Assembly (NCBI RefSeq): GCF_964340395.1
Contig: NC_135568.1
Span: 9,532,776 to 9,596,775, forward strand
Direction of reading: 5' to 3'
From: Glandiceps talaboti
Lineage: Eukaryota > Hemichordata > Enteropneusta > Spengelidae
DNA length: 64,000 bases
Positions 15,975 through 48,943 of the stretch are shown one piece after another (the stretch's first letter is position 1; each line of letters begins with the position of its first letter). Made by a program: the position numbers and the translations under genes. The notes below the pieces were generated by a model that was not told where the DNA came from, did no database searches, and saw only the letters and a program-made list of their open reading frames with translations.

Positions 15975-16754
15975 CTACACCACGTCTTCGTCAAAATACG
16001 GGTTCAGGCTGTCTCTGATTGTCCAGTTTAAGGCTGGGTCTGCATTGACATGATTGTCTGATTTCCTCTGACTGTCCAGTATGACCTTATAGGTGCACAG
16101 GAACAGTTCGGGATACTGGAGAAACACATCCGAACTTGGATTACTTCTAAGAACAGCAATCTGTGTAGTAAAAATATGGATGTTAGAATTATGTAGATTA
16201 GTTAGATTAATAATGTGACATGTGTTGTCTTATCTTACGGTATATCAAACCCATGATAGACACAAAATTTCAGTTATAAATCATGGGGTGAGGGGGGGGG
16301 GGCATTTCTGTATAAAATGATTTGGGAGGTGCCATTGAGCCCTCGAAACCCAACCTGTTGTCATACCACACACCCCAAAAATGGAGACCCTTCTCAGACC
16401 AACTGTATTGTTCAAAATAGATACTATACGGGTCAACGATACATGCAGATGACAGACTGTGATCACTAATACCCATCACTAACACCCACGAGTAAACCAT
16501 GAAGTGTGGAAGAGCATGATTGCCAATGCGAATCTGGAGTACAGTACTTAGAGACATACATATACCTTCATTAACCAGTGAAAATTAGGTATGTGCAAAA
16601 TAGCTTATTTCTCCTCCCAATGAAATCAAAGCCCTATACATACATGTAGTATTCAACCTTTTGGGGTTTCTTAAAACTTTTACCCACCCAGTCATGGCAG
16701 TCTATCTTGTCTGTTTCTTCAAGTAATTTCTTCCTAACTGCATTGTCGGAGTCC
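15975..16754 (-). CDS. Exons 12-13: truncated KEN-like C-terminal tail
   Basis: Exon 12 (16688-16754) encodes DSDNAVRKKLLEETDKIDCH and ends ..DW before donor GTGGGT. Exon 13 (15975-16160) starts IAVLRSNPSSDVFLQYPELF followed by LCTYKVI and ends at TAG (15,975-15,977). DW corresponds to the start of the KEN core (human IRE1 KMDW) and FLQYPELFLCTYKVI to its last helix (FTSRFPHLLAHTYRAM). The roughly 50-residue middle, which holds the family's LLR-x-x-RNKxHHY-type ribonuclease residues, is absent, and I find no exon for it in 16,161-16,687. The phase-0 join of exons 12 and 13 is open. Either the RNase is lost or the missing exon is not in this sequence. Confidence 0.65.
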
Positions 16755-19700
16755 CTGAAAACAGACAGTGAGAATATTTTCACCAGATGAAGATACTATA
16801 TCTAGCACAACTCTAACAAAATAATAAGACTAAAACATATGCAGTGATAAATGTAAAATGTGAACAATAATTTACTCTCAAACCAGAAAGACTATTAAGT
16901 TTCAATTAGTAGACATTAGGATTTTTGCATCTCAAACAACGATTTTTGCTTCGAATTATATAAACAAAATACAGACACTACCCTGGTACAACTAAAACAT
17001 CGAGGGATTGCCAAACGACTGTACGTATCATACACATTTTATGTTCCCTAAGAACAATTTAGATAGATAAGAAACTGGCTTAACACAGATCACTCAATAC
17101 AAATATAAACAACATCATCCAACCCCTACTGATACACAGACACACACACATCGTCCTTGGAACAAACAAACTATTGAAAGTCATCACATTGCAGGCTTAG
17201 ATTTGACACATACCGTATATGTGTATTAATTCAAAGTTACAAGTGATATGTGTGTACACATACAGTGCCTGCTTGTTGGCAGGAATGTGGTGTTGTTTAT
17301 ATTTGTAATGAGTGGTCTGTGGGAAGCCTGTTTCTTATCTCTCTAAATTGTTCTTAGGGAACATAAAATGTGCATGATACGCATAGTCGTTCGGCGATCC
17401 CTCACTGTTTTACCTGTAATAGCACACACACACATGAAACATAATTACATTTTATTTCATTGTGAACTCCAGTAAACAGTGCAGCTGTGTTTGAATCTTC
17501 CTTGTTTCACCTGACAGTTATGTTGCTTTGTGTTCACAGTGAGATAAAATGTGTTATTTTATATGCTTGCTTGCTATCACTATTGGCATTTTGTTTTATG
17601 TAATTCATTAAAAAAATTAATTATGTGGGACATAAAAAACATTGTGCTACCTATTTGCAACTCTGTAGTCACTCTGGTTTGGTAGTAACATTACTGTATT
17701 GGATCTGGATAAATAATTGGCATCGCCTCCTTAGGAGTATCACGCCAATGGGGGTCAAAGGTTAAGATATGAATACTACTGATTTAACTTAGTGAATTCT
17801 AAGTCTTGTCTTGAATGAATATGTTGAAGGCAATTCAATGACAGAAGAGGGTCGTGCATTCAGGTCAAGTCTGGTGAAAAATGAGTTCTTGAAAATTTCA
17901 GTTTTTTGAATCAACGTGTTTATATCTAGCTGGATGGAGTCGTGTACTCTTAGTTGGTGCGGTGACACACAGTTCACCTTTTCTGATTTTGTATAGATTT
18001 GTACGCTTTTCTACACCTTTGTAGGCCACTCAAGATTTTCAAGCATAGTTGTTACACTGCTATGTCGATTATAGTCACCACAAACGAATCTGGCTGCAGA
18101 CCGTTGTACTTTCTCCAGCTTTGTTCTGTTCTGTATATTGTACATGTACCGATAGTAGACTCAACTAGTTCTTTATTCCACAAAGTTTGCATGTACTGCA
18201 TGAAGTAATTAATAAAGTATTTCTTTTATAATGAATACAGCAACTTACCCTTTCTCTGATTCCTCTGCTACTGCATTAAGGAAAGCACTGCATCTTGTAG
18301 GTTCCCAAAAATAAGGATGTCTGGAAATACCAGTGAAAAGAATCATATTGAAAAAATATATAAGTAGCAATTAAGTAAAATTTTCCATCCATGACCAGTC
18401 ATAAGGATAATACTGCTGAGTTGTAAACCATATTTACATGAAAATGCATGAGCTGATAACATTATTGAGAAAAGGAACACAAAATAATGATCATTTTATC
18501 ATCTATTGTCATTATAAAGACCATCTAAGAATTATTTGTTCATAAATTTCTCATCATGTAATATTTTGGGGAAAAATATATTTGATATTCAAATTAATCC
18601 AATGCAAAATGGTGGGAATTCTGAGAAGAATGGTTTCTTTGCAAAGTTTGAAGAAAGATCTAGGTATCTCATGGTTTTTATGATTTGATTGGGTAGCTGG
18701 GTAAGTCTATGATAATCTAATTCACCCTGTATTTGAGTGCGTGTGTGTGTGTGTGTGTGTGCACAGTATGTGTCTCTGTATGTATGTATGTATGTCTGTA
18801 TGTATGTATGTATGTATGTATGTATGTATGTATGTATGTACGTACGTACATACGTATGTATGTACGTACGTACGTACGTACGTACGTACGCATGCATGCA
18901 TGCATTTATGTATGTATTTTTTTTTTATTTATTAATCTTTCATATACATGTACAGACACCATTTCAGTGCATTAGCACTGTTCTCCCAATGGAACCTGTT
19001 GAACCGGAGTATGTATAATAACACTATACAAATGAATAAGGCATCTTTTGTCTAATAATATATAAAAATACAAAGTGATGTTGTACCTAAGTACTTGATT
19101 GATAGACGGTCTATGTTGTCGTTCCATTTGTAGCATCCATGTTAACATGTGACATGCTCTCTTATCTTTCACTTTTTTCATGTTCTTTAATAACCCGTTA
19201 GAAATGTTGCTCGCTAATTGCAAAGGCCTTTCCATATTTCCAAATGGATGAAAACCACCAGATAGTATGTAAGCTGCTATCATCCCTGCAACCTATTGGC
19301 ATACAAAATTGAACATAGTCAAGATATTTTATGCCATAGGAAAGCCAAGTTGAATGTATTAGAACAAAGAATATGAAATTTACTCCCTACATCACAGCAA
19401 CATTCTTCTATATCATTCGTTCTCTGTGCTACTCAAAATGACAGAATCTCTGTTAGCCAGCAAATGCGATTTGGAGCACTTCCTTATCACTGTTCTGTGT
19501 TTGCTGCCAATATTTACGACTGATAATGTAGGCCCCAGATAACACCACACTGACGGCCCGACGTCGGCAAAATTGGGTCGGTGTGTCAACGTTTTCCCGA
19601 CGTCGGCAGAAGGTCGGCACATGCATGACGTTGATAATTGAAAGCATATAAAATGTGTTGTGTTGTCATTTTTCAATACTTGCCGTACTTGGGAAGCATC

Positions 19701-22700
19701 AATGAGGCTTTATTTCACAAGAATAACGACTAAAACAACCGTGTTAACTTGCCGAATGCCACCGTCGGGCCAACGTTGGCTGAACCATGCAACATACCCT
19801 GCGACTTGGTGCTCACGTGATTGTCACGATATGAATGTGTGAATATTGGGTCGGTGTGTCAACGTTTTCCCGACGTCGGCACATGCATGACGTTGATAAT
19901 TGAAAGCATATAAAATGCGTTGTGTTGTCATTTTTCAATACTTGCCGTACTTGGGAAGCATCAATGAGGCTTTATTTCACAAGAATAACGACTAAAACAA
20001 TCGTTTTAACTTGCCGAATGCCACCGTCAGCTCAACTATATCATGGAGCTACAAACCTGCGCTGTCGACTGGGTGATCACGTGATTGTTACGATGCGAAT
20101 GTATAGCACGCCCTCAAGATAAGAAGTGTCTTCTGGTTGACTGCCGCCAACTCGTCATCTCGTTTACTAAGCGTTTTAGGATTTGTTTTCATCTTGGTGA
20201 GTATATTTATCTTACATAATTACTGTCAAAATGACCATGAATATGTTTTATTGTCTAGATTGTTAAATAAGACGACAGAAATTGCGAAACATGGTATGTA
20301 TAGTTCAACGTGCACATTTGATAGCATGGGCGCGAGAATGATCGCACTGTGATCAGTAGCGTACAATACACAATATTAATGCCTTTTTCATAAATATTTT
20401 CAATTATCACGAAACAAAAACATACCAAATAGTAATACCAATACAATAAACTAAATTTCTATGTGATTGGGTAAGGTATAACTTCATGCGTTCGTCTTAC
20501 AGAGCCGATTGTATGTGATCCCGCTGTCTCGGAACGCGTATTGGGGTCACCATGGAAATGGACACGAAATAACCGTGTCTTTTCCATTCACCCTCCTCGT
20601 GTTTAAATTTTGTTTCCGCGCGATCCTTTAGGTCATACAAATGTAACATTGTTGCCATCATTTGCACCAGATTGTGAGCTGCAATTCTATACTCGGAACA
20701 ATAACATAACATGGCATTTTCGATGTGAAGGCATGGACGTTTGCACCTGAACGACTGGTGTTCAGAAAAATGTATGTTTTTTGCACTTGTGAAGTTTTTG
20801 TACTTGAAGTATATGTATGATTGGTGGTATAAATATGTGTAATGGAACAATTTATGTTGTATATTTTGCATACCTGTGTGTGGGCAGTATGGGGTCAAGT
20901 AATCATTGAGTGTGGTTGTTGTTAAAACTATAAGGGGACAATCATTATTTATTAGTATGGTGGATCCTGTATTTATTTTATTTTATTTGGAGGGGTAGGG
21001 GAGAGGTTGGTTTTTTTTTCCACAAAAAGGCTATCCTCCAAATGCCATGATATATATGGGAAGGTTCCATAAACCACCGGTCACTTTAGTGTGATAAATC
21101 AAGAGATTTGCTGGGTTTTCTCTGGGTTTTAAAATTTATTAGTAAAACAGCAAACTCTGTAAAAATATGCCAACATTTGACATTTTCTTTTATATTCTTA
21201 TGTAAAATTTACTAATGCTGAAAATTGAATATTAGTAAATTCCAGTTTTTAATAATTAATTTACTAATTAAGAATTATATCCATTATGATGACTGAATAT
21301 CCACAGGGAGGGAGTAATGTTCCTCCAATGTTCTTCTAGACTAATAGTCCTGTGATCTCTTTCCAAAAGTTGTGCTCTTCATATTGCTCTTGATTAGATT
21401 TTCCATTTCAAGTCTTGGATAAATGACTGAACTCATGGGTTCTTAATTACACACACCATGGTTTCTTCTCCGACATCATATCAGTGCAACTGTGCTTAAA
21501 ACTCTTCAGTGGATTTTCTCTCTTTCTCATTTTGCTTCTTCAACTGCAGTAAAGGAAATGATTGGTTAAAACTTAAAAATCTTTAAAGGTTATTTTACTT
21601 CTGTTGAAGGCCAAAGAATATCCATAAGAATACAAATATTTTAAAGATGCATCTGACTTGTGTTGTTGTGTTATAACGTTACGGATAGCTTTGAGCTTCC
21701 TCCACATGATGTTTGACTCTTGAAGGGTATGTTATTAAATAAATTGATAGGACATGTATTTAGAGCCAGTGCTGATATCTCAATATGCTAACTACATTAA
21801 CACTAAATGATTGGTAAGAAGGGGAGGGATGATACTCTCTTCAGATTATTGAAGTATTGAAATATTCATGTGAAAAATGGGATTACTCAGTTTCATAGAT
21901 GTACTGGTTCATTTCATTATATACATATATATAAATATATATATATAGTTTTGGTAGTACTGGTACTCTTTCTTGGTTGTAACTCGGAGTTTCACGCATA
22001 GTGCGATCATCAGACAACACTATCATCACGCACTATGCGTGAAACTCCGAGTTACAACCAAGAAAGAGTTCCAGTACTACCAAAACTATTGCGCTCTGCC
22101 ACTGCGGTATAGAGCACTGTCTTAGCAGATATATAAGCTATATAAGTTACAGCATCTCTACAAATAAATGGTGTTTGTAGTGATACGTAAGATTTCATAT
22201 GTATGAGCATTGAAGTAATACTGCCATGTTAGGAGCAAAGGTAAAAATGACAATTGATGAACTGCTTCAATTCATTAATTTATTGCAATAAAGTTTTGTA
22301 GCACTGTAAGTAATCCTGGATTGATTTCAATTCTAACTCAAGAATATCATTTGAAACCCCAAGTCTTCATAATGAATATTCAAATAAATGGTCAATTAAT
22401 TAAAAGTGGCCATATGAATGAGGACCGGGCATTTATATTGGATTTTTCATTTATAAAACATTTTTATCATTGCTTCCTATTTGGAAAATCAATGCAAAAC
22501 AATTTGACTAAGTCTGTGTTTGTAACTCAGTGACTGCAAAAATTACAAAAAATGAATGGTGTAAAAAGTTTGTTATTGAACATTACAACAATTGCATCAA
22601 ATGTATTGATCAACCAGATGAGTATCTGATAATGGATAAAATTTACAAGTGTGATTTCGATATGGTCATACTAAAAGATTTGTTTTCAGCAAACAACCTA

Positions 22701-25700
22701 ATTGTTTATCTAATATTTACATGAGGATCTCAAGTCAGCTGGGACTCATGGAAAAACGGGTTCATTACAGCATCAAGAAAGATACCAGTAACAGCTGTTC
22801 TGTCTGTCTTCTCAACTATAAAATGCATATTTAGTATTTTACACCTTTTCTTTTGTTTCTCTTGTACAGTCAAGTTGCAAGGACAAAAGATGCACTGAAG
22901 TAATAAGTATCTCATTGTCTATTCAGGCAATGTGTGACAACATCTATCTAAAGATAAACATAGACAATAGCTAGTAGACCTCTCCACTGTTTTTGGGATA
23001 AATTACCATGGTCTATTCAAAATATCCTGAAACAACACATGGCAATGCCAAGATCTTAATAAACATTTGTAACATCACAGACATACTGGGGTCACATATG
23101 GAAAGTTTGGAATCAGTTCTACCACCAAGTATTTAGTCACTATTGAAGAAATGCATGGATTTGCTGCATATATTAAAGAGTTTGAAAAGTTTCAAAAAAC
23201 AGTACTTGAACTAGAAATATAGCCCTAGCACAATCTGCCACATGTCAAGAATAATGATAAAAATTGTCACTCTTACCTTTGTTGTTCCAGTGAACTTGAT
23301 TTTGACCAAAAGTTGATCAGATCATGGAAGTAATATCAGCCATGGTCAAACAGAGAAACCACTATTGTGGAACCATCAGTAGACGTAGACATGAGATCAT
23401 CTTCGGTTAAAATTACACCAAAAATGGCAGAAAAGAGATCTCCTTTGCAAAGGCTGCTATAGCTAGGTAACTTGCTACATGCCAATGTGAAAATAAGTGA
23501 AAACTTGGCTAAAACTATGTATCAATGTGTGGCACCGTACTTTTACCAGTTGTTGTATGTGGTACAACTTCAGCAGAATTATGCTAAAGTTGACCTCTGG
23601 CCTTTCCACTCTTTCAACCAATAAGCATGCATGCTCATTGTTATGTAGTATACAAAACAGTGACACAATATTATATGTGTTTTGTGTTTGTACAAAGTAT
23701 GCACACTGCCCAGTGATACAGATGTACACATGTAGCAAGAACCAAACAAGGTCTGAGTTGCAGAGTCGGCACATACATAGTGCATATGACAATCAGAGTT
23801 TTTACACAAAAATATTATTGTTCCTAAAAAGAAAGGTAAATTTCATTTTGGTCAATCCCATCTCAAATTAACAAAAACAGTTACATTTTTTTATCTTACA
23901 TCATTATTTTTACCTACAAATAGGTGCATCGGCATAAAAATAATGATAATTTGTGTTTAGATAAAAAATGTACTCTGTGGATATTCCTGAAATTTCCCAA
24001 TGATAGTTGAATTTAATAGTCTTTGTGCTGACAATTTTGTACCCTGTTTTACCCAATATAAACTGAGTTTGGGATTTATAGATCCAAAAAAGACACGCTG
24101 TATCTCAGACTAGTGGTTTATAGTGGTTTGAGAGTGTATGTAGTCACTTCCTCTGTCTGTTGATTAATGTAATATGGATTCAGGCTACTGGGCTATATTT
24201 TCTGGATCTGCAATTTGACATTGCAGTTTGTTTTTGTGTGTGATGGATTCAGGCTACCGCTAGTACCAGGCTATATTTTCTGGATCTGCAATTTGACATT
24301 GCAGTTTGTTTTTGTGTGTGATATATATTTGATTCAGTTACATGCATCTGTTCTACAAGCAAGACAAATTTCCTGCAATAATTGCACATACATTGAAACA
24401 TTAATTTTCAGACACTGGTTCCAAAATATATAGATCTCGCGCTATTATGTTGTACCATATTTATGAGGTACTGGTATAAATTCATCCTGGGTTTATTGTA
24501 AATGCTGCATGATTCAAACTTTCTGCATAACCATTCTATACTAGTATGTGTTCCTCACAACTCCACCAAGTTCAGTCAGAGAGGAAAAGTTTGTTTTCTC
24601 CTAGGCAACATTACATTTTAAATCTACAGAATTCCTGTACTCCATACATGTCTATTGTATAGTCATGGGAACAGTTAGTAACTTAGTCATGAGAACATTG
24701 ATAGATGTATATACATTGTGTATTCCACTAGATAACTCTAATTATGCCCTTTATTAACTGTCAAAATGTTGACTAAGTTCATGGAAGTATAACCCTTCTT
24801 TTATGCTCAGTGTTTGAGATGTGCAGGATTAGCAGTCCGCTACTGGAGCTAATAGTAAAGTTTGTGCACAGGGGACAGCGAGCATGTAATCGATTGATTG
24901 ATTGATTATTTGGTCGAATGATTGATTGATTATTTTTTCCTTCTCTCCCTGGCTACTTTTCTCTCTTTCAACTAGTATATGATACTAGTTTATGCATGAT
25001 TGATTGTTTGTATAGGGTGTTATCCGCCAAAAGATTAGGCATAATGAACATTTTCACTGTAACCAATCATGGGATTAGGGGTGTTTTAATTTAGATAAGA
25101 AGAGAACAATTGACAAGGTGTCTTTATTTATATAGTAAAGATACAGTTGAAAGAGAGAAAAGTAGGCATATAGACAGTGTAGCCGACACGAAAATAGGGT
25201 ACACGAAAAAAAGAAAAAAATCATGGGGGGGGGGGGGTATGATGAACTTACTGCGTGGGCTGTAAGGTAGGGGGTGGCCCATTCCAAGTTATCAACTTAC
25301 TTCTGGAGTTACCAAGTTAGGGCTTGGCATCTAAGGTAGGGGTGCCATGGCCTATTCCAAGTTACCAACTTACTTAGTTACCAAGTTAGGGTTTGATCTC
25401 TAAGGTAGAAGGTGGCCCATTCCAAGTTACCAACTTACTTAGTTACCAAGTTAGGGTTTGATCTCTAATCTAAGGTAGAAGGTGGCCCATTCCAAGTTAC
25501 CAACTTACTTAGTTACCAAGTTAGGGTTTGATCTCTAAGGTAGAAGGTGGCCCATTCCAAGTTACCAACTTACTTAGTTACCAAGTTAGGGTTTGATCTC
25601 TAATCTAAGGTAGAAGGTGGCCCATTCCAAATTAAGTTACCAACTTACTTAGTTACCAAGTTAGGCCTTGGGCTAGAAGGCAGTAACTTGTTCTGATTGA

Positions 25701-31700: not shown

Positions 31701-34700
31701 AAGAACTTGGTCAATGAGACTGAAACTTGGGGAGATGTTTCTGAAAGTGTTATTCTTGCAGATTTTCTTCAAAAACATTTGGACAAAATCAAAATGATTG
31801 CATCACATATGTGCATTTTGCATCAACAAATGTGATTCTGGGTTTGAAACTCATGCAAAATGAAAAGTTATAGTTTTATAGATGCAATAAAATCATTAAA
31901 ATCTTTTATGGGCTACTTCACATGTCAATGTCAATTGCATGAAGATTACCCTCTGTTTAAGGTTGCTTGGAAACACTGTTTTAAAAATACTCTCTATGAT
32001 TAAACAGGTTCATTCTGTGCTACATACATAATACAGTCTTTGGGGTCAAGAAAGTGTGATTCACCAAATGAACATGTATACCTAGCATGCTCACCATGCG
32101 AATAAATATTTTCAAAACAGTACATTGTACAGTTGTGCTACAACACCATTGGTGGTATTTTTAGCTTTCAAAGTTGGTGTGAGGAGACATTGTCCATAGG
32201 GCAACCATTTTATTATAAATTCTGCCATGTCTACAGCCTTTATTACTTTGAACTCTGTTAGCAAGATGTCATACATTCCACACACAATTACATTTAAGAT
32301 AAGTTTTAGATATTTCCAAATATTCAAAAAAAGAAAAGAAAAAAAAAGCGGGAACTGTGTAATATCATTACTTGTACACTAGCAATAAATATTTGATAAA
32401 ATCCAATATTTTGTGTCTTGTTTAGTGTATTTGAATCACATTCAGCCCTGTATGGAATCTCTGATAGATCTGTGGGCAGCTTGCCATTATGCAGTGAAGC
32501 ACCATTGGGCCAACAGTGGCCCAACGTTGGGCCAACCTTACCACCAATTAGCAATGTTGGGCCAACGTTGTGCCTACCTATTTCTTGCCACTGTTGGGCC
32601 AACGTTGTGCCAACCTATTTCTTGCCACCAGTGAACCAACGTTGGGCCGACGGACAAAACGACGTTGGGCCAACCTCAGTTCCTGACGTTGGCCCAACTG
32701 ATCTACTTTCGTTGGGCCAACGTTGGCCCACCACAGGTGTGCTATCTGGGGCTTACATACCACAGAGTTCACAGTATGTAAAGACTAAGTCGCACTACTT
32801 GTGGCCATTCTTGAGAAACATGCATGTAAGAAAGTTTTATTTGAATCCACTCCTAGTCAAAATTTCATGAACTTCATTGTAATTAAAAATAGCTGGATTA
32901 TTTCACAGTGTGATGTTCATATTATTTCTCCTTGATGATCACTGTAACCAAAGCACAATTCCAAGTGTAACGTCATTTGAAGGAGTAAATCATTTCAGGC
33001 AGGGGACCTCAATGTTTTATTAATTGTTGCAAAAAGTTCTAGAGATGCAAACAATTGAAATTTATCCAACCAAGTGAATAGGTAAATCAAGATTAGGCAA
33101 TCAGGTTTTTTTATCTACCAAAGTTAACAGAAAAATCGTGAAATTGTTTTTCTTGATCTCTCATGTCAAAAGATCCGATATCGGTGAAAATTGGAATAAT
33201 ATTCTGATTCTGTGAGTAACAATACTTCATGTTTAACATGTGTTAAGCACCCTAAAACATTAATTATTGCTGAAACATTAGCTTGTGTTGATGAAACAAT
33301 AAAGATATCTAACCTGTATGTCAGTTCGATGGCTGTACTCTACGGCTGATTGCTTTCTTTTGTCAGTCTCGAACCTTGAGTCCTGCTCATTATCTTCTTC
33401 ATCCTCTTCCTCGTCATCAAACATTGGTACTAAAACTTCTCTAGCTTGCCAACAAATGGTTCCTGTAGATAATACATTGAAACGTTAAAGGCAAAGTCCA
33501 GTCAGACTTATTTCAACTTTCAGTACACTTGCATTTATTACTGCGATCAACTTAAAGGAAAATTCCAGTCCGACTTATTTCTATCTTTTTAGTACACTTG
33601 TATTGATTACTGCTATCAACTCAAAGGAAAAGTCCAGTCAGACTTATTTCTACCTTTAGTACACTTGTATTGATTACTACTATCAACATAAAGGAAAAGT
33701 CCAGTCAGACTCATTTCTAACTAAAGTACACTTGTACTGATTACTGCTATCAACTTACATATGATTGTGGGTGATAAAATAGCACCTCAGTAACTTATTC
33801 AGCTTTGAAATTTTGAGGGAAAAAAGACCTACTGCACTTGACGTATACATCCAATTGCGGAGGTGTTGCAAAGGTTTGTGGGGAGGGGGGGTAGATTCTG
33901 GTGATGACATCATGAACACACTAATCTCTTGTTGTGAAACTCTTCATAATAAAGTCACCTTCACAGAGGTCAACAGGTGTTATTTTCCAAATGTTTGGAG
34001 ATCATTTCACAAGTTGCAAAAGTGTGCCATTTGTCTTTTCACAATAAAGGTTTACTTGTCAAGCACTTAGATATAATTTTCACACATTTTTTAAAGTGGA
34101 TATGTTTTAATGTGTTGCAATTATTGAGATTCAAAATAGATGACTTTGTATATGTTAGTTTTTTCAAATAAAAAAAAACATAGTTGAGTGATTTTATCAA
34201 TTAAGAAAGTCAAAATATTCACTTCTCATCCATAGGGCAATTTATTTTATAGCTAAAATCATGTAGGCTTGGCCCACTGTTTCACTCATGGAACATTACA
34301 TTTTTGAAAAAAAAAAAAGGTAGACACATGTCGACTCTAGACTAACAAATAACAAAGACACAATAAACAGCAGGATCCTTTTCCCAATACCCATACTGAG
34401 CTGTGATATGCATTGCTATTCTTTCAAAGTGTGGTTAAATGGGCTTCTCATGAAGCATTAGCACATGGACTTGATGATTTTAATGGCTGCAATTGTTTAT
34501 TTGCTAACTGTTAATCAACATTTAAACTTGACTGCTTCTACAATGTGCACGGCACCTATGTAATTGTTTCTTTTGAATTAAAAGTTGTCCGAGGGTAATA
34601 ACTGTCATGTTGCATGAGTGAAACACCAAGCCTACATCAGTTTAGCTGGAAGCAATTTGTGATCGAAACATAAAATGACATACCTTGAGCACCTGTTAAG

Positions 34701-37700
34701 AAAGTACTCTGATTGTGGGCAATGGAACGACTGATTCCAAAATCAGCTAATTTTGCAACACCATTACAGTCAATCAGTATGTTTTCAGGCTACAAGAACA
34801 GGACCAAAAAGACACATTAGTGAAGTTTGTTGTCTCTCAGTAATCATCTAAAGGGTAAATGTTGTATTGCCTATAAAGTAATCTTGTGTAATTAACATCA
34901 AATACATACCTCATTAGGTTTCTTTCTACAAGTCATTGCTGAAGACATAGTTCCAAATACTTAAGTATTTAGTAACTAAATGTAATTATTATTGAAAATT
35001 TCTCCTCTCAGAGTCAAAACATTTCTCAAATTTTCACTGACATCTCGTCAGCATCATCAGGGGAAAATTCATTCTCCCACTAAATGTGATGTTAATTGGT
35101 GTCGTACAATTCACTTAACGTTCATGACATCATCAGAAATGTCTACTCACAATATAAATATCCATTGAGGCAACTGTGGTTTCTTTGTCTATGAAAAGAT
35201 AGAAGTTGCTAACGGGTAACATCTACTGTAGTTCAAAGCAAATATGCCGTGCTTTGTCTATCACTGCTGCAATGACGCATATGACACACATAATAAAATA
35301 CACTAGCTGTCAAGAATCCCTACCTTGAGATCTCTGTGTATAATCCTTGGGTCACAGTTGTGGAGAGTTCTCAGTCCTCTAAATAGAGCTAACACCAACG
35401 ACTTTGACTTTTCATCCAGGTTGGTTTTGTCTGTCTTTAGTTCACCGATGTATGTACCTAATGTCTTCTCACATAGTTCCATTATGATGTACACATACTC
35501 ACTATGTTCAACTACATCCTACAACCAAAATAAGAAATACAATATTGATAATTCTTATAACTTTCAACTTCATGCTTTTTGAATATTTTGAAGCTTCTTT
35601 TATGACAAACATGAATTACTAGCTTTGTTGATGGTTTTTAAGGATTAGAATTAACATTAGAATTATCATTTTGGAGAGAAACACAGTTGTTGGGAAGAGA
35701 GCTGTACAAAAAGTTGGCACAGAACAACATTGTATGTAATCGTAAGGCGCCACTGATAAGATAACTTTAAAGGGAAACACCACTCCAGCAAATACAGACA
35801 TTTTGATAAACAATGGCTTCTGGAGAATCATTTTACATCACCTACAATTACTTGCAATTTCAGAGAAACATCAAGTTGACCTTGTGCCTTTATAGGGTAT
35901 CGTTGCTGTGAGCTATTGCATCATGGGAGTCAGCAGAAATAACATAAGTCATTGTTGCACATTGAATATTCATGACTCCTGAGTGCTCACTCCCTATAGT
36001 GTAAAACATCTCTCATGAATAGTCAATGTGCAACCATGAATATACATTTATATCCAGTGTTGTAATTCCTCTCCTTTATAATTTACAATAATTATGAATA
36101 CAACTTACATGATATTTCACAATATTATCAGACGCAAGAGAAGGGTTATTGACGATTTCTAGTTCTTTGTGGATGAAAGGTGATGTTTTGTCACTTTTGA
36201 AGATTCTTTTAACAGCCACTTCTTGTCCACTTGACAAGTCAATACCAAGCAACACCTTGGTTCCTTCACATCTGAAAATGTACAAATGTTAAAAGAATTC
36301 TAAGAATTTATCTATGAAAGTGATTCCATTTTCATGCTAAATTTGCTGCAAATACAGTAAACTGTAAACTGAAAAGGGCTTAACCAAATACTGTTGTAGG
36401 TTATCTGCTCACAGTAATTTGGTACACAGACTTAGTATTCCAGGAGACTTCCCTGTATGGCTTGACATGTACTGCTTTATTATGACAGATATTGTCAAAC
36501 CGAATAGCCAAGTATGTTGTCTAGAATCATGACTGTGCATCTGTTTTGGATACATTGAAGGCGTTGATAAGTATACAAAGTAATGCCACTATTGTGAATC
36601 TACAACATAGTGTAGAAGCAACGAAGGACATAAAGTGAATGGCAAAACCTGTCCTTGTGGTTCACTGCATATATTGCTGTAAAAGAGAGTTTTATTGTGG
36701 TTGTGACTCACTGCATAGATCTCTGTAAAAAGAGTTTTTATTGTGGATGTGGCTCACTGCATATATTGCTGTAAACAGATTGGCAGTCTCTGTGATACTA
36801 CCAAACTAAGGAGACTACAGAGTTTCAATGAGGCTACACAATGCTTTTTGTTCTTGTTCATAAGGACAACACATTGGCAGTCTCTGTGATACTACCAAAC
36901 AAGGGACACTACAGAGTTTCAATGAGGCTCCACAATGTTTTTTGTTCTTGTTCGTTAAGGACAACACATTGGCAGTCTCTGTGGTACTACCAAACTAAGG
37001 AGACTACCGAGTTTCACAATGACTTTTTTATATCTCGCATAAGGTTTAAAGTTAAACATTACATACAACAAAATACTGACAACAAATGTTGTGTGATCCA
37101 TTAAAAACATTGTGCAACCTAACAGAAACTCTATACCCTCTCTATTTTAAATTGGTAGAATGTACAGTATAGAGAGAGCATACATTATGTACACGTAAAT
37201 AATCATTGAATGTCACTAATTTCACAAATTCTAACAGCAGCACACTCTTACCCAGTAGCTATACTATATTCATCATCAGTTTCACATAATCTGATGTTTC
37301 CAACTTGTCTACATTGGTCGTCTGGTAAGGCCATCAAATTTGTCAACTTTTCACGCCAGACTCCATGCCTTGACTTCCAACTTGGAGAACTGAGGGATGC
37401 CTACATAAGACATACATGTGGAGGAATAAAGTGTGTTGATTTAGTACAAGTATTGTACTAAAACTCCAAAGGCTAACTCTGTACACAGACACATAGTACA
37501 ACACAGATATGTATTTCATACATATGTACATACATACATACATACATGCATACATATGGGCATGCACGCACGCACACACACACACATGTATATGTAAGTC
37601 ATGTATGTTGTAGACTAATTCATACCTAACAATTGTGATGTGAAGATATACATATCAATTAATTCAAATAACAACATAAACAAGTCCTCAAATTTACAGT

Positions 37701-40700
37701 ACTGATTTTTTCAATCATGAATAACTCAATTATTTTTCAGTTCTTTTAAATCTCATGCCAGATATACCATTTGCATGTGTTGTCATTTCCAAATGACGTA
37801 CTGTCTACATGTTGGTATGGTATATGTCTACTAACTTGATAGGATTAGTGATTGACCACATGTACTTACAGGTGTTTCACCCGAAGTGTTCCCTGACTCA
37901 CCAGGTGTACTGGGTAACTGATTGGGTAGTACAGGTACTGGACCAATGTCCATATGGTCTTCTGGTGCCACTGTATGTACATCTTCCATGTTGCCATCTA
38001 CTTCACAGTCAATGTCCATAGGAACCTCAACATTGTCGCTTTCTACAGGGAAATTTCATTTCTGTATCTGGCATTGAAAACTTTTGTATGCTCAATAAAT
38101 AGAATATGCAATAAGAAATCATTTGTATTTTTCATTGGCCAGTACTGCAACGTATATAATCTCTACATATTTTTTCCCCAAATGAAAGTATCACTCTTGT
38201 GATTTGACTCATATGTGTTGATAAGAATAGATTGGCTTTAAACTTAAAGCCATGTTCTCATGACCTGGCCAACACTACAATGTATCACAGAAGGGGTATT
38301 CTGACCCACATATTTGTTTGTTTTTGGGTTGAAGCAATATTTTTCAAGAACAAAAAGTTTAAAAGATAAAATAAAATAAAATAAATTTCCACTCTACCTA
38401 CCCTATTTTCTGAGGCCATGTTATCGGAAACACACAATTATTTTTTTTCCGGCTACGTACAATGTCAGTTTCTAATACTAGCAATGATTGGAGCCAATTA
38501 ACAGAATTAGCTATCTGATTGAAGAGTCTGGGTGAATATTAACCTAGAATCAGACCTGTGGGGATTTTTGGCGCTTACCTTTCCCCTACCATGCCTGACA
38601 TTTTGCTAGCAGCCACTTACTTTAATGAATGTTAGGCCAGAAATCAATAGTCTCCCCACCTGATTAGAATGAACTTGGAGGGTTCAGTTGTACAATGCCG
38701 GTAATTACCATATTCAATGGGGGGAGGGGGGGTTGAATGTTACTGCAAGAAATCATAATCTAATTTTAGGTTTGAACAAGTCATTGAAAATGACATAGTC
38801 CCCGCTATGATTGGGTTTTAAGGAACTGGCAGTTTATGTTGTCATTTTCAAACCTGGTTAATGTTGTGTGGCCTCATATGGTTGTTTTTGATATGACTAC
38901 TCTGATCACACAACAACACTTGTGAACCTAAATCAAACAGATATGTTGTGTCTGTTCATTGGACATGGAACATCACTACTCATGTTGTGTCTCCTTGTTG
39001 GACATGGGACATGCCTACTCTTCGAGATGATGTCATGGAATAAACCATTCAACAATAGAGGATGTGTCGGGGGGGGGGGGGGACCAGGGGACCCGTTCAA
39101 GCATGTCTGAGCTATGGCTTTGGACATAACAGCTACTCGAAAAATATCAGGCGTGGTAGGAGAAAGGTGAGAGGCAAAAATCCCAATATGACTGGATTCT
39201 TGGCTATTGACAGAACTGCTTCATTCTGAAGAATGTTCTCAAGTCAGAGAGCCAAGTCTCAAGGCCTTCCAGGTTGCTTCTTACCTCTTGATGCATAGCG
39301 AACAGCACACAAGCGTACAAGATCATCTTGAGACTGCTTCAATTGTGCATGGGTGTCCAAATCTCTTCTGAGATTACTTGCTATTGTGAAAGCTGTGTTA
39401 ATTTTGTCTTTAATTAGTTTCTGCAAGATGCGTTTCATCCACTCCTCACTGTCAGCCTCCGTGCTTTCTGATGTGACCGCTGTATCAACAGTACAATGGA
39501 AATGATAGTCATCATCTGGGAATAGACTTGTAAGGAAGTGTGCAATCCCGGAACAACTTGGCACCAGTACTGGAAATCCTGCCTGAATTGCAAAGTATGC
39601 TGCAAAATTGAAAGGATTTTGCTTCTCAGGGGCCACAAGTAACACACTCTGTTGCATCCAAGTTTCCATGTCATTAACACAAAATGATTTTGCTATGTTT
39701 ATTTGAAGATCTCCAGACTCTGCTTTGTTTTCAAGATATCTTTTGAAGTTTTCCCCTATTGCTGTATTAACGCCGTACAGATTCCATACCGGAAGAATCT
39801 TTTCAAACGTATCCGTAAACTTCTTGATGACCTTTCCGATAGCAACTGCAATGACGTCATATTGGGGAAAATCATCTTCGGTTTGCACATTACAAATGGT
39901 AAGAATCTGTCGTTTACCAAATTGAGGGGATGGAGTCATGTCTGTGAATGGCTTAATTGGGGGTGGATAGTAACACACATGTTCTGGTCTTTGGTGTTCT
40001 GGAATACCACCAAATTTCGTAATAAAATGATGATAAACGTATGGACCAACGGAAAAGACGACATCGGCAGCTTTGGCAAAGTCTAAGATTTGCCTCTCAT
40101 AATCGTTATTTCCTAAATGTTCTGGAATGTCATGAATGAAGAATACCATCAGTGATTCAGGTGCGATGTCCTTCTTAATATGCAAACCAATAGCAGCCAG
40201 TCTTCCATCTTCCTCCATCGTTATGTGTCCGACCACAACATCAAGAATACCTTTCAGTTTCTGCAAATATGGATAGTTGCTGGTGTGAGAGGTTATCCAA
40301 TCAAGTGTTGGCGTTTTGTTGATCAGTTGGTCTATTTGACTTTTGTCAGCATATATAATTTTAACACCTGTGTCATCATGAACAAAATCCTCATCAGACA
40401 CTCCCAGTGCTGTTATGTAGATCGACAAACCAGCGTGTGTCAGTTCCGATGCGACTATTTTGTTGATGACTTGAAGTCTGTTGACATCGTCAGACCATTT
40501 ACTGTTCACAATTAAACCAGCTGGACCTTGAATGGAATAAATATTTTATTTAAAATGTAGTTTCATACAACATATATACTGGTACATGTACTATGGACAT
40601 TGTGTTATCAGCTTACTAAGAAAAATACAAACTTCTGTTGTTGTACATGTATGTGATAGATTAGCCAAAAGTGGGTGACAGCATTGCCTTGGTTACATAG

Positions 40701-43171
40701 ATATAATCACCATGTAATAAAGAATATATAAACGCTGAATGGGTTGAATGTGCAAGGAAAACTTGCCATCAGAAATGACACACTATTGTGAATGTATTAT
40801 CCTAAGTACCTGCAGTAGAATTCTACCAACTGGGAGTAATAATGACTATTCAATTTCTTATTCACATCATAACTTCTGCTCCAAGTGCTATACATGCATT
40901 ACTGTAGGCATGCATGAGAATAAGTCAACCTCCTTGTTCTATTTTGACCCTCTAGTATGTGGTGACAGTGTTTTTGCTAATGGCGGTTAGTAGGTAAAAT
41001 CTACCAGGGTTCCCATGTCATTTTACCTGAGTTCCCAAACAAAATTAGTACCATAGACTCTATGGGCAAACACTGCCATTTTTACCCCTTTCTCCCTTTT
41101 TGTTACCAGGGTTCCCAAACTGTAGCAAAAACACTGGGTGAAATGATATTGCAGACAGTGACAATTAAATCAATGTAAATTACTATATCACTACTTTGGC
41201 GTGTAAAACTGTAGAGCAACTATTTCTGATTTTCAAATAATTTATAGAACATCATATGTCAAATTACAACATTGCCCATCATTAACATGATTAAGTGCCT
41301 TCAATATGGATATTAATTTAATACAGTCTTACCATCTTCTTGAGCTGCTGGTGTTTGTATTTGAACTTTGTCCTTTGCTTCTCCTCGTTGTGTTTGTTGA
41401 TTTTGATGTTGCTGCTGCTGCTGGTGCTGTGGAGCTGTCTGCAGTGCAAGTGCATGAGCCTTGTTTGCATTTTGAAACTTCAACTGAACTTCTTCCTTGA
41501 GTTTTACATATGAATATTCGATATTGAAACCTATCTTAAAGCGAAGTTTAACTTGTTCTGCTAATTCAAGTAGCTTGGCTTTTGTGAGAAGATCATAGAG
41601 ACTATCGTCCTTATATTTGGATAGATGGCCGGCTTCTTTTAACACCATGAACAGATCGTAGGCATTCTTGTCTTTCATCAATTCATTTCTGACTCGTTTT
41701 GGAATGCTTGGATAAGGCAGTGCAGCAGATAATTGAATCAATTTTGCACACTCATCTGTAAGAACAAATTATAAGAAAGAGTAAACGTCATGTATGATTC
41801 GTATATAGTATTGGATTGAATGCGTTGTGAACTACAGGGAAATTCAAGTTGCCTTGGCACTTAACTCATGGGACGCAATGTTTTTTGTATAAACATACAT
41901 GTAGATGCATTTCAATTCTCGCTACCTGCAATACAATTCTACACATCACTGTGGAGTCAAATGGAATGAAGTCGCACGACAACGCGTTCTAATGTCGACA
42001 ACTACACTTCCGGTCGGCTATGCTAATACATAGGAATGTTTCTTTCCCATTTTCAGTTGTAGACATCTCTTGTAATTTTGCTCTGGAAAGATACTGTACA
42101 TATTTAAATTTCCCACCTCCATAATTATATGAGCTTAAAACTTGCGTTTATCTTATTTGTTACAAATTAAACTGTTTGGAAGAAACATTCACGTGTATTG
42201 ACATAGGCGACCAGAAGTGTAGGTGTTGACAAATGCAAGCGCGGTCGCGAGACTGCGTTCCATTTGACTCCTTAGCGATGCATAGAATTGTATTGCAGAT
42301 AGCGAGAATTCCACATTAACAATAACAAAGACACCACACACAGTACAGCATTATCCCATATCCCTCTTCAGGTCAGGTCCATGTAAAAGACAATGGCTGT
42401 GGCAGGATTAGGGTTAATTAATGTGTAATGTTTTCATTAGAAACCTGTTTTTACTGCACTGTGAAAGAATAGCAATGTTTATCACTGTTCAATGTGATCG
42501 GGCAATGGATCCTGCTGTGTTTGTCGTTTCTCTGTGATTGTCAGTCTAGAGTTGAAATATGTCTACCTCTGTGTCAAACATGTAATGTTCCATGAGTGAA
42601 ACACCAAGCCTACATCATTTTAGCTATATGAACAGCAGAAACATGCTTCTGGTGAAAAGGTAACAATTGGACGTTCCTACTGATAATCAGCATGGTTACT
42701 TGTTTGCTTCTACATTCCACTTTGCACAGCACCTGTATAAATTGTTTATTCTGCATTTGTAATTGTCTAGGTGTTGCAAAAAATGTCACTTCACATGAGT
42801 TGAAGTGAGACAACTTCATTTTTACCTTAAAATAGGGAACTTACAATCCAGACCAAGCATATACTCTGCAGATGCAAAGGACTATGGGATTATGGTTATT
42901 CCCTTCAGTGTGAAACATTTCTCATGAATATTCATTGTGCAAACAAGATTATATTATTTCTGACCCCTACCATGCAATGGCCCACAGCAAAGATGCCATA
43001 TAAATCACATGATCAACTTGATGTGTGTGTGTGGGGGGGGGGGGGGGGGGTTATTTTTTTGTGCAAAAAACCCTACAAGTTGAGTATAACAGGATTGAAA
43101 TGGTTATTACCTTTGCCAATATCATCTGCCAAGTCCATCAAGTATGGTACAAATGGGTTGAATTCTTCCAT
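15975..43171 (-). CDS. DED - GT4-like glycosyltransferase - IRE1/RNase L-type kinase - KEN-tail fusion, 13 coding exons
   Basis: I do not recognise a named orthologue. Exons, minus strand in order: 43111-43171, 41333-41755, 39285-40526, 37870-38042, 37252-37400, 36109-36271, 35324-35518, 34684-34789, 33314-33462, 19087-19292, 18249-18320, 16688-16754, 15975-16160. Every junction is GT-AG, every phase agrees, and the sum is 3,192 nt = 1,063 aa plus TAG. Domains: death effector domain ~1-85; Gln-rich coil ~110-160; GT-B fold ~162-560; acidic/Pro linker ~575-635; kinase ~675-980 with intact catalytic residues; KEN-like tail ~1003-1040. No signal peptide or membrane segment is seen, so the protein is probably cytosolic, unlike IRE1. 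By family knowledge the death fold would recruit partners and the kinase might act as switch or pseudo-RNase activator; this is inference. Main risk: two neighbouring genes could have been joined, although the phases argue otherwise. Confidence 0.82.
17000..17405. repeat. Inverted-repeat (MITE-like) element in kinase-gene intron
   Basis: The left arm (~17,003-17,115) and right arm (~17,290-17,404) are inverted copies sharing TGTTCCCTAAGAACAATTTA and ATATAAACAACA and their complements. The element sits between kinase-gene exons 11 and 12. Confidence 0.7.
18249..19292 (-). CDS. Exons 10-11: kinase C-lobe and KEN entry
   Basis: Exon 10 (19087-19292) follows a 14-kb intron and continues the C-lobe: VAGMIAAYILSGGFHPFGN, equivalent to the IRE1 SAGCVFYYVISEGSHPFG strand-helix, then TWMLQMERQHRPSINQVL with the alpha-I Arg of RPS. 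Exon 11 (18249-18320) encodes HPYFWEPTRCSAFLNAVAEE. HPxFW at the kinase end followed by a helix is the signature junction of IRE1 and RNase L kinases to their KEN domain. Confidence 0.85.
18738..18925. repeat. Compound microsatellite (GT)n-(TATG)n-(TACG)n
   Basis: Long alternating tetranucleotide run. ORFs across it (Tyr-Val-Cys-Met or His-Thr-Tyr repeats) are artefacts. Lies in the intron between exons 10 and 11. Confidence 0.95.
19545..20112. repeat. Tandem duplication (~262 bp x 2) with CGACGTCGG palindromes
   Basis: The block from the GTCGGTGTGTCAACGTTTTC motif through a GCATCAATGAGGCTTTATTT segment occurs at ~19,576-19,837 and again at ~19,850-20,112. Related CCAACGTTGG palindromes occur inside it and at 32,500-32,740. 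Likely mobile-element-derived satellite. Located in the 14-kb intron. Confidence 0.7.
20497..20898 (-). other. Unassigned open frame (133 codons) ending at a splice-donor-like site
   Basis: The frame holds AAHNLVQMMATMLHLYDLKD and then a charged stretch (KFKHEEGEWKRHGY). It stops just inside a GTAAGA site at ~20,499-20,503, in a locally GC-richer patch. It looks more protein-like than other frames in this intron, but I recognise no family. Its donor phase does not fit kinase-gene exon 10, so it is not an obvious alternative first exon. It may be a transposon-derived exon or chance. Confidence 0.2.
21950..22090. repeat. Palindromic pair of Penelope-type terminal repeats
   Basis: Inverted arms (~21,951-22,008 and ~22,023-22,087) share TTTTGGTAGTACTGG, CTTTCTTGGTTGTAACTCGG and TTTCACGCATAGTGCG or complements. 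The same sequence flanks the Penelope-like fragment at 59.3-59.45 kb, so this is a solo terminal-repeat pair. A TA-rich tract precedes it. Confidence 0.7.
21976..22018 (-). ncRNA. Candidate type I hammerhead ribozyme, copy 1
   Basis: On the minus strand: helix I GTTGT, core CTGATGA, hairpin II CGCA-CTA-TGCG with a flanking U-U mismatch, core GAAA, short helix III ACT-CCG-AGT, cleavage position after GUU, then ACAAC closing helix I with five pairs. Hammerheads of this minimal type are known in Penelope-like retroelements. The opposite palindrome arm lacks the CTGATGA core. Confidence 0.7.
24174..24323. repeat. ~76-bp tandem duplication
   Basis: The unit containing GGATTCAGGCTAC and TTTTCTGGATCTGCAATTTG occurs twice in direct orientation. 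Intronic. Confidence 0.85.
24862..25985. mobile_element. Foldback element with long terminal inverted repeats and internal tandem array
   Basis: The left terminus (~24,862-24,962: GCGAGCATGTAATCG, GATTGATT tracts, TCTCCCTGGCTACTTTTC) is inverted at ~25,872-25,985 (AAAAGTAGCCAGGGA, tracts of AATCAATC, CGATTACATGCTCGCT). The inside (~25,290-25,660) holds four to five direct copies of a unit with GGCCCATTCCAAGTTACCAA and TTAGTTACCAAGTTAGGGTT. There is no transposase ORF. This suggests a non-autonomous DNA element of foldback type. Confidence 0.75.
27273..27402. repeat. Hairpin (MITE-like) element
   Basis: Arms of about 60 bp begin TTTGTTCCC-TCAGGACTAG and end with its complement; both contain GTCACACCAAAACAGTC. 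Lies between DUF4806 exons B and C. Confidence 0.8.
27933..28102. repeat. Hairpin (MITE-like) element
   Basis: Inverted arms of about 70 bp with termini TATATAATCCCATG. The inner part contains GTGTTACGTCATAATTCTAC on both sides. Confidence 0.8.
28986..29152. repeat. Hairpin (MITE-like) element
   Basis: Inverted arms with TTTTGGCTTA termini and a shared GGCCCTGGGCCACTTT block. Third foldback element within 2 kb. Confidence 0.8.
29929..30617 (+). pseudogene. DUF4806 domain exons D-E
   Basis: Exon D follows TTCCAG and encodes VRHLSTLGGVSSKDVVERIM then a W-L-G-K-G-K turn (LSTIYNWLGKGKLKNHALSQ). Exon E starts DAAKQSNVKEADCEAAIKNW, the last DUF4806 helix. TGA at 30,590-30,592 interrupts the frame, which otherwise stays open through KKRAEKQK to the donor at 30,618. 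Confidence 0.7.
31250..31860. repeat. Degenerate ~100-bp tandem repeats
   Basis: Four to five diverged units share TTTTTGGTCAAAAA, CTCCAAAACTAC, GCAGATTGG-x-TGAAATTT and ATATGCAAATTAGG. They start shortly after the DUF4806 stop codon and a GT microsatellite (~31,224-31,242). No coding meaning seen. Confidence 0.7.
32500..32745. repeat. GTTGGGCCAAC palindrome cluster
   Basis: At least seven occurrences of GTTGGGCCAACGTTG-like self-complementary blocks, irregularly spaced. Related CCGACGTCGG and CCAACGTTGG blocks occur at 19.5-20.1 kb. Frames across them are open by chance. Intronic. Confidence 0.8.
33314..36271 (-). CDS. Exons 6-9: protein kinase N-lobe, catalytic loop and activation segment
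   Basis: Exon 6 (36109-36271): Gly loop G-CEGTKVLLG, then VAVKRIF with the ATP-binding Lys ~704 and a KELEIV alpha-C Glu. Exon 7 (35324-35518): hinge IIMELCEKTLGTYI and catalytic RIIHRDLK (~795-802). Exon 8 (34684-34789): PENILIDCNG and DFG in KLADFGIS (~818-820). Exon 9 (33314-33462): GTICWQAREVL (APE replaced by ARE), then an acidic insert (MFDDEEEDEEDNEQDS) before SHRTDIQ. The ELC-x-x-TL-x-x-Y hinge, HRDLKP-x-NIL and G-T-x-x-W activation segment end match the IRE1/RNase L kinase family. K, E, HRD and DFG residues are all present, so an active kinase is expected. Confidence 0.85.
33480..33760. repeat. ~65-bp tandem array, ~4 units
   Basis: The unit contains AAAGTCCAGTCAGACTTATT, AGTACACTTGTATTGATTAC and TATCAAC. 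Lies directly beside kinase-gene exon 9, in intron 8. Confidence 0.88.
34210..34670. repeat. Inverted-repeat element; second member at ~42,360-42,640
   Basis: TAGGCTTGG...TTTCACTCATGGAACATTAC near 34,265 is inverted at 34,610-34,645 (TGAGTGAAACACCAAGCCTA). Shared inner sequence (TAACAAAGACACAATAAACA) appears inverted near 42,500 in intron 1 of the same gene. MITE-like family with two copies. Confidence 0.6.
36640..37020. repeat. Two adjacent tandem arrays
   Basis: First, about three units of ~60 bp around CTCACTGCATATATTGCTGT (~36,655-36,778). Then about three units of ~94 bp starting ATTGGCAGTCTCTG (36,779, ~36,872, ~36,967). Intron 5 of the kinase gene. Confidence 0.82.
37252..38042 (-). 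CDS. Exons 4-5: acidic Pro-rich linker and kinase pre-lobe
   Basis: Exon 4 (37870-38042) encodes an unstructured, acidic, Pro/Ser-rich linker (for example MDIDCEVDGNMEDVH and GPVPVLPNQLPSTPGESG) with no known domain. Exon 5 (37252-37400) encodes a basic helix-like part (WKSRHGVWREKLTNLM) and then IRLCETDDEYSIAT, the first strand of the kinase N-lobe. The last codon (GG|A) is split with exon 6 and makes the first glycine of the nucleotide loop. Confidence 0.72.
38285..38465 (+). repeat. Dispersed repeat Y fragment
   Basis: Contains TATCACAGAAGGGGTATTCT, GAAGCAATATTTTTCAA, CTACCTACCCTATT and TTATCGGAAACACAC. The same series lies inside both copies of the 2-kb duplication (47.5-47.7 and 49.97-50.15 kb). 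Transposable-element remnant. Confidence 0.7.
39285..40526 (-). CDS. Exon 3: GT-B / GT4-like glycosyltransferase domain
   Basis: One 1,242-nt exon encodes both Rossmann lobes (protein residues ~162-575). N-lobe: LIVNSKWSDDVNRLQVINKI, DVVVGHITMEEDGRLAAIG (~257-275), FFIHDIPEHLG (~291-300), AKAADVVFSVGP (~313-323). C-lobe: RQILTICNVQTEDDF (~367-381) and the donor-binding segment AAYFAIQAGFPVLVPSCSG (~470-488). This follows GT4-like domains that several invertebrates fuse to death-fold or TPR modules, whose C-lobe reads E-x-FGLxxLEA-x-x-x-GxPVLV. Here both Glu positions of the E-x7-E motif are lost (QNPFNFAAYF), so sugar transfer is doubtful. The exon ends AGAG|GTAAGA. Unspliced, the frame stops after eight residues at 39,259. 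Confidence 0.8.
41333..43171 (-). CDS. Exons 1-2: death effector domain and Gln-rich linker
   Basis: Exon 1 (43111-43171) starts at ATG 43171 in a good context (AACCATGG) and encodes MEEFNPFVPYLMDLADDIGK. Exon 2 (41333-41755) opens in matching phase with DECAKLIQLS. Together they give the six-helix DED pattern: hydrophobic H1 (FVPYLMDLADDI), H2 (CAKLIQLSAAL), charged H3/H4 (AYDLFMVLKEAGHLS), and H5/H6 (SLYDLLTKAKLLELAEQVK). The RxDL motif of H6 is replaced by KLLEL, so DED is favoured but another death-fold class is possible. A Gln/His-rich low-complexity stretch follows (CAGCAGCAA codons near 41,410), then a Lys/Gln linker. Intron 1 contains a 19-bp G run (43,032-43,050). Confidence 0.78.
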
Positions 43172-48873: not shown

Positions 48874-48943
48874 CCTGAAAACTCTCGAAGTATATCCGAA
48901 GGGAACTGACTGAAAAAAGATCATTTTAAGGTGTTTGCAGACG

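Follow-up and report, generated by a model that had tools for sequence, protein, structure and literature searches.

The kinase of IRE1 (ERN1) is activated by dimerisation and trans-autophosphorylation, and in the RIP kinases the combination of a kinase with a death-fold adaptor forms a cell-death switch. To our knowledge, IRE1-type kinases beyond IRE1 and RNase L have scarcely been described. Glycosyltransferase-type GT4 domains are known from another setting: the text of PMC8195603 reports them in metazoan immune proteins, with more than 500 in Acropora digitifera, places them with death-fold and TRADD-N domains (GT4-TRADD-N in cnidarians, cephalochordates and hemichordates), and mentions S/T/Y kinases on TRADD-N proteins. 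Here we describe a gene of the hemichordate Glandiceps talaboti that very probably joins a death effector domain (DED), a GT4 domain and an IRE1-like kinase in one chain.

The gene lies on the minus strand, from 43171 to 15975, of the window, the 64,000-nucleotide stretch of DNA that was analysed (C22:9532776-9596775 of a 590-Mb, 47-contig genome); positions below are those of the window, and all exons and introns are on the minus strand. A sequence-only reading of this DNA had proposed a chain of 13 exons and 1,063 residues. We rebuilt this model and confirmed it: all 12 junctions are GT-AG, the phases agree from exon to exon and there is no internal stop. Exon 1 (43111-43171) contains the start codon (context ACCATGG, preceded by an in-frame stop) and the first part of the DED (MEEFNPFVPYLMDLADDIGK), and ends at the donor AAG/GTAATA. 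The rest of the DED and a Q-rich linker are encoded by exon 2 (41333-41755), for which counterparts in two paralogues (P4 and P5, below) could be aligned. Exon 3 (39285-40526) encodes the GT4 domain, of the GT-B fold, and exon 4 (37870-38042) an acidic linker with the motif PMDID. The kinase and what follows it occupy the remaining exons. As the earlier reading had claimed, there is no clear membrane span in the protein (best 19-residue hydropathy mean 1.4), and no ankyrin family was among its Pfam matches.

Several other features of the window and genome were noted. On the minus strand, a fragment in intron 11 (about 18000-18130; KVQRSAARFVCGDY) looks, by eye, like the end of a non-LTR reverse transcriptase; frames at 1857-2096 and 3544-3741 look like kinesin motor exons, and those at 8761-9111 and 9401-9784 like a histamine N-methyltransferase-like methyltransferase, both by eye. 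On the plus strand, similar frames about 2.4 kb apart (46908-48910 and 49368-51260) appear by eye to be a tandem duplication. Contig C40 (L071) carries three identical-scoring COX1 copies; because these are 15,435 bp apart, the contig is probably an assembly artefact made up of three mitochondrial genomes placed head to tail. COX1 has ATA at conserved isoleucines and no AAA codons, and the mitochondrial order is ND2-COX1-COX2 with tRNA-Ser between COX1 and COX2 (genes named by eye), features that point to a hemichordate.

The gene is not alone in its genome. A search with the kinase part, which scored 98 of its 210 first-look candidates, found homologous kinase exons at five places on contig C18. 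When the genome was searched with the GT4 exon, the five best matches after the window gene itself were GT4 exons of C18 (55, 45, 43, 42 and 40% identical), and these lie 1-5 kb upstream of exactly the five C18 kinases, on the same strand. We refer to the five paralogues as P1 (3.826-3.843 Mb), P2 (21.423-21.433 Mb), P3 (21.452-21.440 Mb), P4 (21.545-21.534 Mb) and P5 (21.564-21.5515 Mb). Since all five share the GT4-then-kinase order, a chance fusion is unlikely, and the unusual architecture first proposed for the window gene alone is borne out. Of 46 exon starts, 39 had an AG exactly where the phase required it, and 32 of 42 exon ends had a GT likewise, in a test that allowed only offsets in multiples of three and in which AG and GT each make up about 6% of positions; one of the misses, exon 5 of P4, carries a GC donor there. 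The six kinase-bearing genes formed one clade (support 100/96) in a tree built from 33 GT4 exons, three of them sister exons added to the aligned set, which indicates a single origin. A pattern search for relatives elsewhere, in a collection of genome contigs, gave 24 matches, none of them confirmed. Tandem copies of the terminal exon follow downstream at steps of 159 bp: P5 (L062) has four, P2 (L065) has three, and P1 (L064) has a second, diverged copy.

The kinase was recognised by Pfam (Pkinase, residues 687-960, 1.4e-36). With the C-terminal 430 residues as query, the 16 best matches in the PDB were all IRE1 (best 1.4e-28, 103 bits); RNase L came after them (6.8e-15, 57.9 bits). The module starts in exon 5 (37252-37400; VGNIRLCETDDEYSIATG), which aligns with VGKISFCPKD of IRE1, and continues through exon 6 (36109-36271; Gly-rich loop, VAVK lysine and alpha-C), exon 7 (35324-35518; hinge to HRD, as IIHRDLK), exon 8 (34684-34789; PENIL and DFG), exon 9 (33314-33462; activation segment GTICWQAREVL and an acidic insert) and exon 10 (19087-19292; C-lobe). 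In the activation segment of the window gene the APE of IRE1 is replaced by ARE. All six family genes retain the VAVK lysine and DFG, and five retain HRD, P4 having HKD; judged by these motifs, the kinase appears to be the sole module that keeps its catalytic residues. Profile searches of the 1,063-residue product divide the earlier domain calls: Pkinase and the GT4 family were matched, the DED scored below its cut-off, and Ribonuc_2-5A had no match. The IRE1/RNase L-type kinase of the earlier reading is closest to IRE1, and a working KEN nuclease was not confirmed.

A second IRE1-like kinase, for which the 16 best PDB matches were likewise all IRE1, occurs in a dispersed element of the same genome (for example L059 at C18:1025153, L060 at C5:27023729 and L061 at C4:31791871). 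Nine matches on eight contigs share a 207-residue frame, three copies compared were 98.5-99.9% identical over about 3.47 kb, and on C5 an open reading frame of at least 849 residues lies about 2.6 kb downstream. This second kinase looks as if it is carried by a mobile element.

The GT4-like glycosyltransferase domain of the sequence-only reading corresponds to the Pfam family GT4-conflict (PF20706), matched at residues 166-554 of the window protein (6.8e-25; 9.6e-26 for exon 3) with 88-91 bits against a curated cut-off of 26. The domain is abundant in this genome, with at least 101 matches to that of the window gene (E up to 1e-5, the window gene included), or at least 57 by the Pfam model. 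The only PADLOC match of the GT4 domain was a weak one, to LmuC (3.1e-4). We compared active-site positions in an alignment of 30 rows. Six of the rows are the kinase genes; the other 24 are kinase-less and come from the 30 GT4 loci that scored best by Pfam (L010, L014, L019, L025, L027 and L030 being omitted), a choice among the best scorers that biases them towards kept motifs. Both glycines of the N-terminal loop (GG) were present in none of the six kinase genes versus 22 of the 24 other exons, the GR arginine and the PFG glycine each in none versus all 24, and the LKG lysine in one versus 19. In E-x7-E, no kinase gene had kept the second glutamate, versus 22 of the others, and an acid at the first glutamate was found in five of the six kinase genes (N in the window gene) and in all 24 others. 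These residues serve catalysis in GT4 enzymes, and the GT4 domain of the kinase genes is probably catalytically dead.

Loss of the active site is not confined to genes with a kinase. The two exceptions among the 24, L029 and L031, have no kinase match nearby, which extends the loss beyond the kinase genes. In the three sister exons of the tree (C22:8.695 Mb, C17:5.932 Mb and 5.924 Mb) the second glutamate is absent by eye, and all of the 95 kinase matches lie elsewhere. Since these kinase-less sisters already lack the second glutamate, the order of events suggested by the sequences is that loss of the active site preceded gain of the kinase. As the active-site residues are lost, sensing or scaffolding would fit the domain better than catalysis.

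The call of a death effector domain is probable. Pfam placed a DED at residues 11-89 of the window protein with 0.0012 in the full protein and 4.6e-5 for the N-terminus alone, both below the Pfam cut-off; the match is weak, at 24 bits against a cut-off of 35.9. The DED exon of P5, however, scored 36.7 bits, above that cut-off, and thereby supports the call in the window gene. A three-row DED profile matched only FAS death domains in the PDB, weakly (E 0.4-0.76). The DED exon is present in the window gene, P4 and P5, and was not found in the approximately 2 kb of upstream sequence searched in P1-P3. The genome has at least 150 DED matches, and four kinase-less GT4 exons, like that of P5, have a Pfam DED at most 3.3 kb upstream on the same strand.

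Taken together, the modules are consistent with a cytosolic sensor kinase linked to the death fold, in which a DED, an apparently dead GT-B domain and a kinase with intact motifs are combined; we judge this account to be probable, if by a modest degree. In such a protein the DED would couple to other death-fold proteins, while the GT-B module would either serve as an oligomerisation platform or bind a ligand, which might be a nucleotide-sugar, a glycan or a protein from a pathogen. Two IRE1-like kinases, paired by assembly of the DEDs or by the bound ligand, would then trans-autophosphorylate as IRE1 does. The output would be phosphorylation and DED-driven complexes, not RNA cleavage. We infer the sensing, the activation by dimerisation, the DED partners and the immune role from the nature of the modules, and any ligand named here is pure conjecture. 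The cytosolic immune or cell-death kinase envisaged in the earlier reading would still be the best account of the gene. It is unlikely that the protein is instead a cFLIP-like decoy or inhibitor whose DED and kinase titrate death-fold complexes; two of the three originally enzymatic parts do look inactive, as such a role would suggest, but the kinase motifs are retained.

An RNase L-type output, which the sequence-only reading had implied, would need the kinase to drive a working KEN nuclease, as in an effector of the RNase L/IRE1 type, with a diverged catalytic exon having been overlooked. We consider this improbable. In its favour, both ends of the KEN module are present, and their sequences (HPYFW..DW and YPELFLCTY) resemble IRE1. 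Indeed, IRE1 alignments with the window protein extend through HPYFW, reaching DW at most: exon 11 (18249-18320) encodes the end of the kinase and the first KEN residues (RHPYFWEP.., aligned with HPFFW of IRE1), and exon 12 (16688-16754) the first part of KEN, aligned with IRE1 to DW and ending in phase 0. Exon 13 (15975-16160) resumes with a probable last KEN helix (YPELFLCTYKVI), weakly like that of IRE1 (SRFPKLLLHTYNVIM versus QYPELFLCTYKVIL), followed by a conserved tail, NWTIRDxxxPxFxEDV, and the stop. Between DW and the last helix, about 45 residues were not found, the KEN stretch with the catalytic R and H; these two residues are given as the nuclease motif of KEN/HEPN domains in the text of PMC3710099. 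In the animal's own IRE1-type gene the corresponding 45 or so residues are spread over two exons (by eye).

The catalytic exons of KEN should fall within intron 12 (16161-16687), but none was found: patterns of the KEN catalytic motif (RNxxxH) had no match over the whole window, enumeration of open GT-AG exons with a phase-1 start in the intron found no KEN exon, and neither did a three-frame reading of the exon 12-13 interval in the window gene, P1, P2, P4 and P5. A profile built from the animal's own and human KEN found three own IRE1-type KEN exons (6.3e-27, 6.6e-22 and 3.5e-13), whereas in the six family genes its scores stayed at noise level (the exon 12-13 interval being covered in all except P3). 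Since the family's recognised KEN pieces also gave only noise with this profile (E above 2), it excludes a conserved catalytic exon and not a diverged one, which leaves some room for a working nuclease. The stronger test, given this insensitivity, is a translated cross-comparison of the exon 12-13 interval of the same five genes. It recovered the 22-residue exon 12 (pairs from 2.5e-7 to about 0.01), the start of exon 13 (P2/P5) and a short P4/P2 match within exon 12 (0.037), and no second common exon before exon 13, save for one pair between the window gene and P2 (E 0.02; SLSTVLQIRIGNHALPHF / NVSTLFIMLINEYLLPHF; 16565-16490, minus strand, inside intron 12). When spliced in as a candidate KEN exon, this pair did not improve the Pfam KEN match, and the similarity is probably due to chance.

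A fragment of P5 weakly matched PF06479 (0.083), which could be read in favour of a nuclease. With hhalign, a C-terminal profile of the family aligned with the animal's own KEN at the last helix only (probability 14.9%), and a C-terminal profile of the five genes gave 18 weak PDB matches (E 0.14-0.53), 16 of them IRE1 and two taken as chance. Against an overlooked exon, the window gene, P1, P2, P4 and P5 share the codon at which exon 12 ends, each with a phase-0 donor, and in these five genes that donor and the acceptor of exon 13 are already in phase. An RNase L-type output is not supported, since none of the five genes yielded the catalytic segment of KEN. The simplest reading of these sequences is that the ends of KEN were kept and its catalytic core was lost before the family duplicated.

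It is very unlikely that the locus comprises two adjacent genes, one for DED-GT4 and one for the kinase, that were duplicated together. We checked the read-through of exon 3, the point at which the earlier reading had seen a possible end of the transcript: the phase-1 donor of the window gene sits 23 nt before the first in-frame stop. Similar phase-1 donors are found 5-23 nt before the first stop of the GT4 exon in P1, P2, P3 (weak) and P5, and P4 has a phase-0 donor. The nearness of these stops in five genes could point to a gene that ends there, as could the linker exons, which are poorly conserved. Linkers of fitting phase with an xMDxx motif are, however, proposed in the window gene, P1, P2 and P3. 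For P1, P2 and P3 the choice was made by eye, from 3, 11 and 14 candidates, and the donor of the P3 linker is weak; the GT4 exon of P4 itself contains such a linker, and P5 yielded no fitting exon that carries the motif. In P4 the gap between GT4 and kinase is only about 1 kb. From the donors at the end of the GT4 exon and the phases of the linkers, the locus is very probably a single gene, as originally proposed.

A decaying pseudogene would account for the shortened KEN and for intron 9 (19293-33313), which measures 14 kb in the window gene and about 0.5-1.4 kb in P1 to P4, but is highly improbable in view of the 1,063 open codons with GT-AG junctions and of dN/dS ratios well under 1. By the Nei-Gojobori method these ratios were 0.15-0.43 for GT4 (15 pairs). 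The kinase gave 0.18-0.29 in 13 of its 15 pairs, the remaining two being dS-saturated and many of the others having high dS. Both sets indicate that the family is under purifying selection. Least credible of all is that GT4 is a working glycosyltransferase effector regulated by the kinase: the text of PMC8195603 does propose GT4 as an effector modifying invader molecules, and the acid at the first glutamate is left in five of six genes, but all six have other residues in place of the second glutamate, the GG loop and the GR arginine, and the second glutamate is also gone, by eye, in the three kinase-less sisters.

Beyond the death-fold-linked sensor kinase that we favour, a broader proposal can be put forward only tentatively, and we think it rather doubtful: the family may represent an undescribed class of animal cytosolic immune kinases, in which a GT4 domain lost catalysis and became a sensor, captured an IRE1-type kinase and then dropped the RNase core, so that the dimerisation switch, which in IRE1 leads to RNA cleavage, came to serve DED-based death-fold signalling instead. 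A stepwise path within one genome is suggested, from GT4 to GT4 without its active site and then to the same domain with a kinase. The family, with its IRE1-like kinase kept and the RNase core apparently lost, makes it possible to test whether the IRE1 kinase switch can signal without its nuclease, and whether a dead glycosyltransferase can be an intracellular immune sensor.

The described systems each share part of this design. The RIP kinases also combine a kinase with a death-fold adaptor, but belong to another kinase family, use Death or CARD domains rather than DED, and have no GT domain. IRE1 aligns with the window protein over the kinase and the start of KEN and supplied the 16 best PDB matches; in contrast to IRE1, the window protein has a DED and GT4 in front, shows neither a lumenal sensor nor a clear transmembrane span, and, together with P1, P2, P4 and P5, yielded no KEN catalytic segment (RNxxxH region). 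A complete IRE1-type KEN is encoded elsewhere in this genome, by a gene on C6 of which the KEN exons were examined. RNase L likewise has a kinase followed by KEN and is cytosolic, as the window protein would be; the latter differs in having no recognised ankyrin repeats, in a kinase nearer IRE1 and, as far as its sequence tells, in the lack of a KEN catalytic core. The Acropora Glycos_transf_1 proteins with NACHT, LRR, TPR or ankyrin described in the text of PMC12314368 are similar as expanded GT-domain genes in NLR-like architectures, whereas the word kinase is absent from that text. No account of a DED-GT4-IRE1-like kinase fusion came up in full-text searches of the literature. The view that these modules were unknown together is nevertheless not supported for the first two, because a DED precedes four kinase-less GT4 exons in this genome and GT4 with death-fold or TRADD-N domains is published (text of PMC8195603). 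The metazoan GT4 conflict proteins of that work resemble the present family in joining GT4 with death-fold domains and in lineage-specific expansion, and by analogy the GT4 and DED expansions of this genome resemble those published immune families; IRE1 and KEN are absent from its text. The new part is thus the IRE1-like kinase, carried on a GT4 domain whose active site appears to have been lost.
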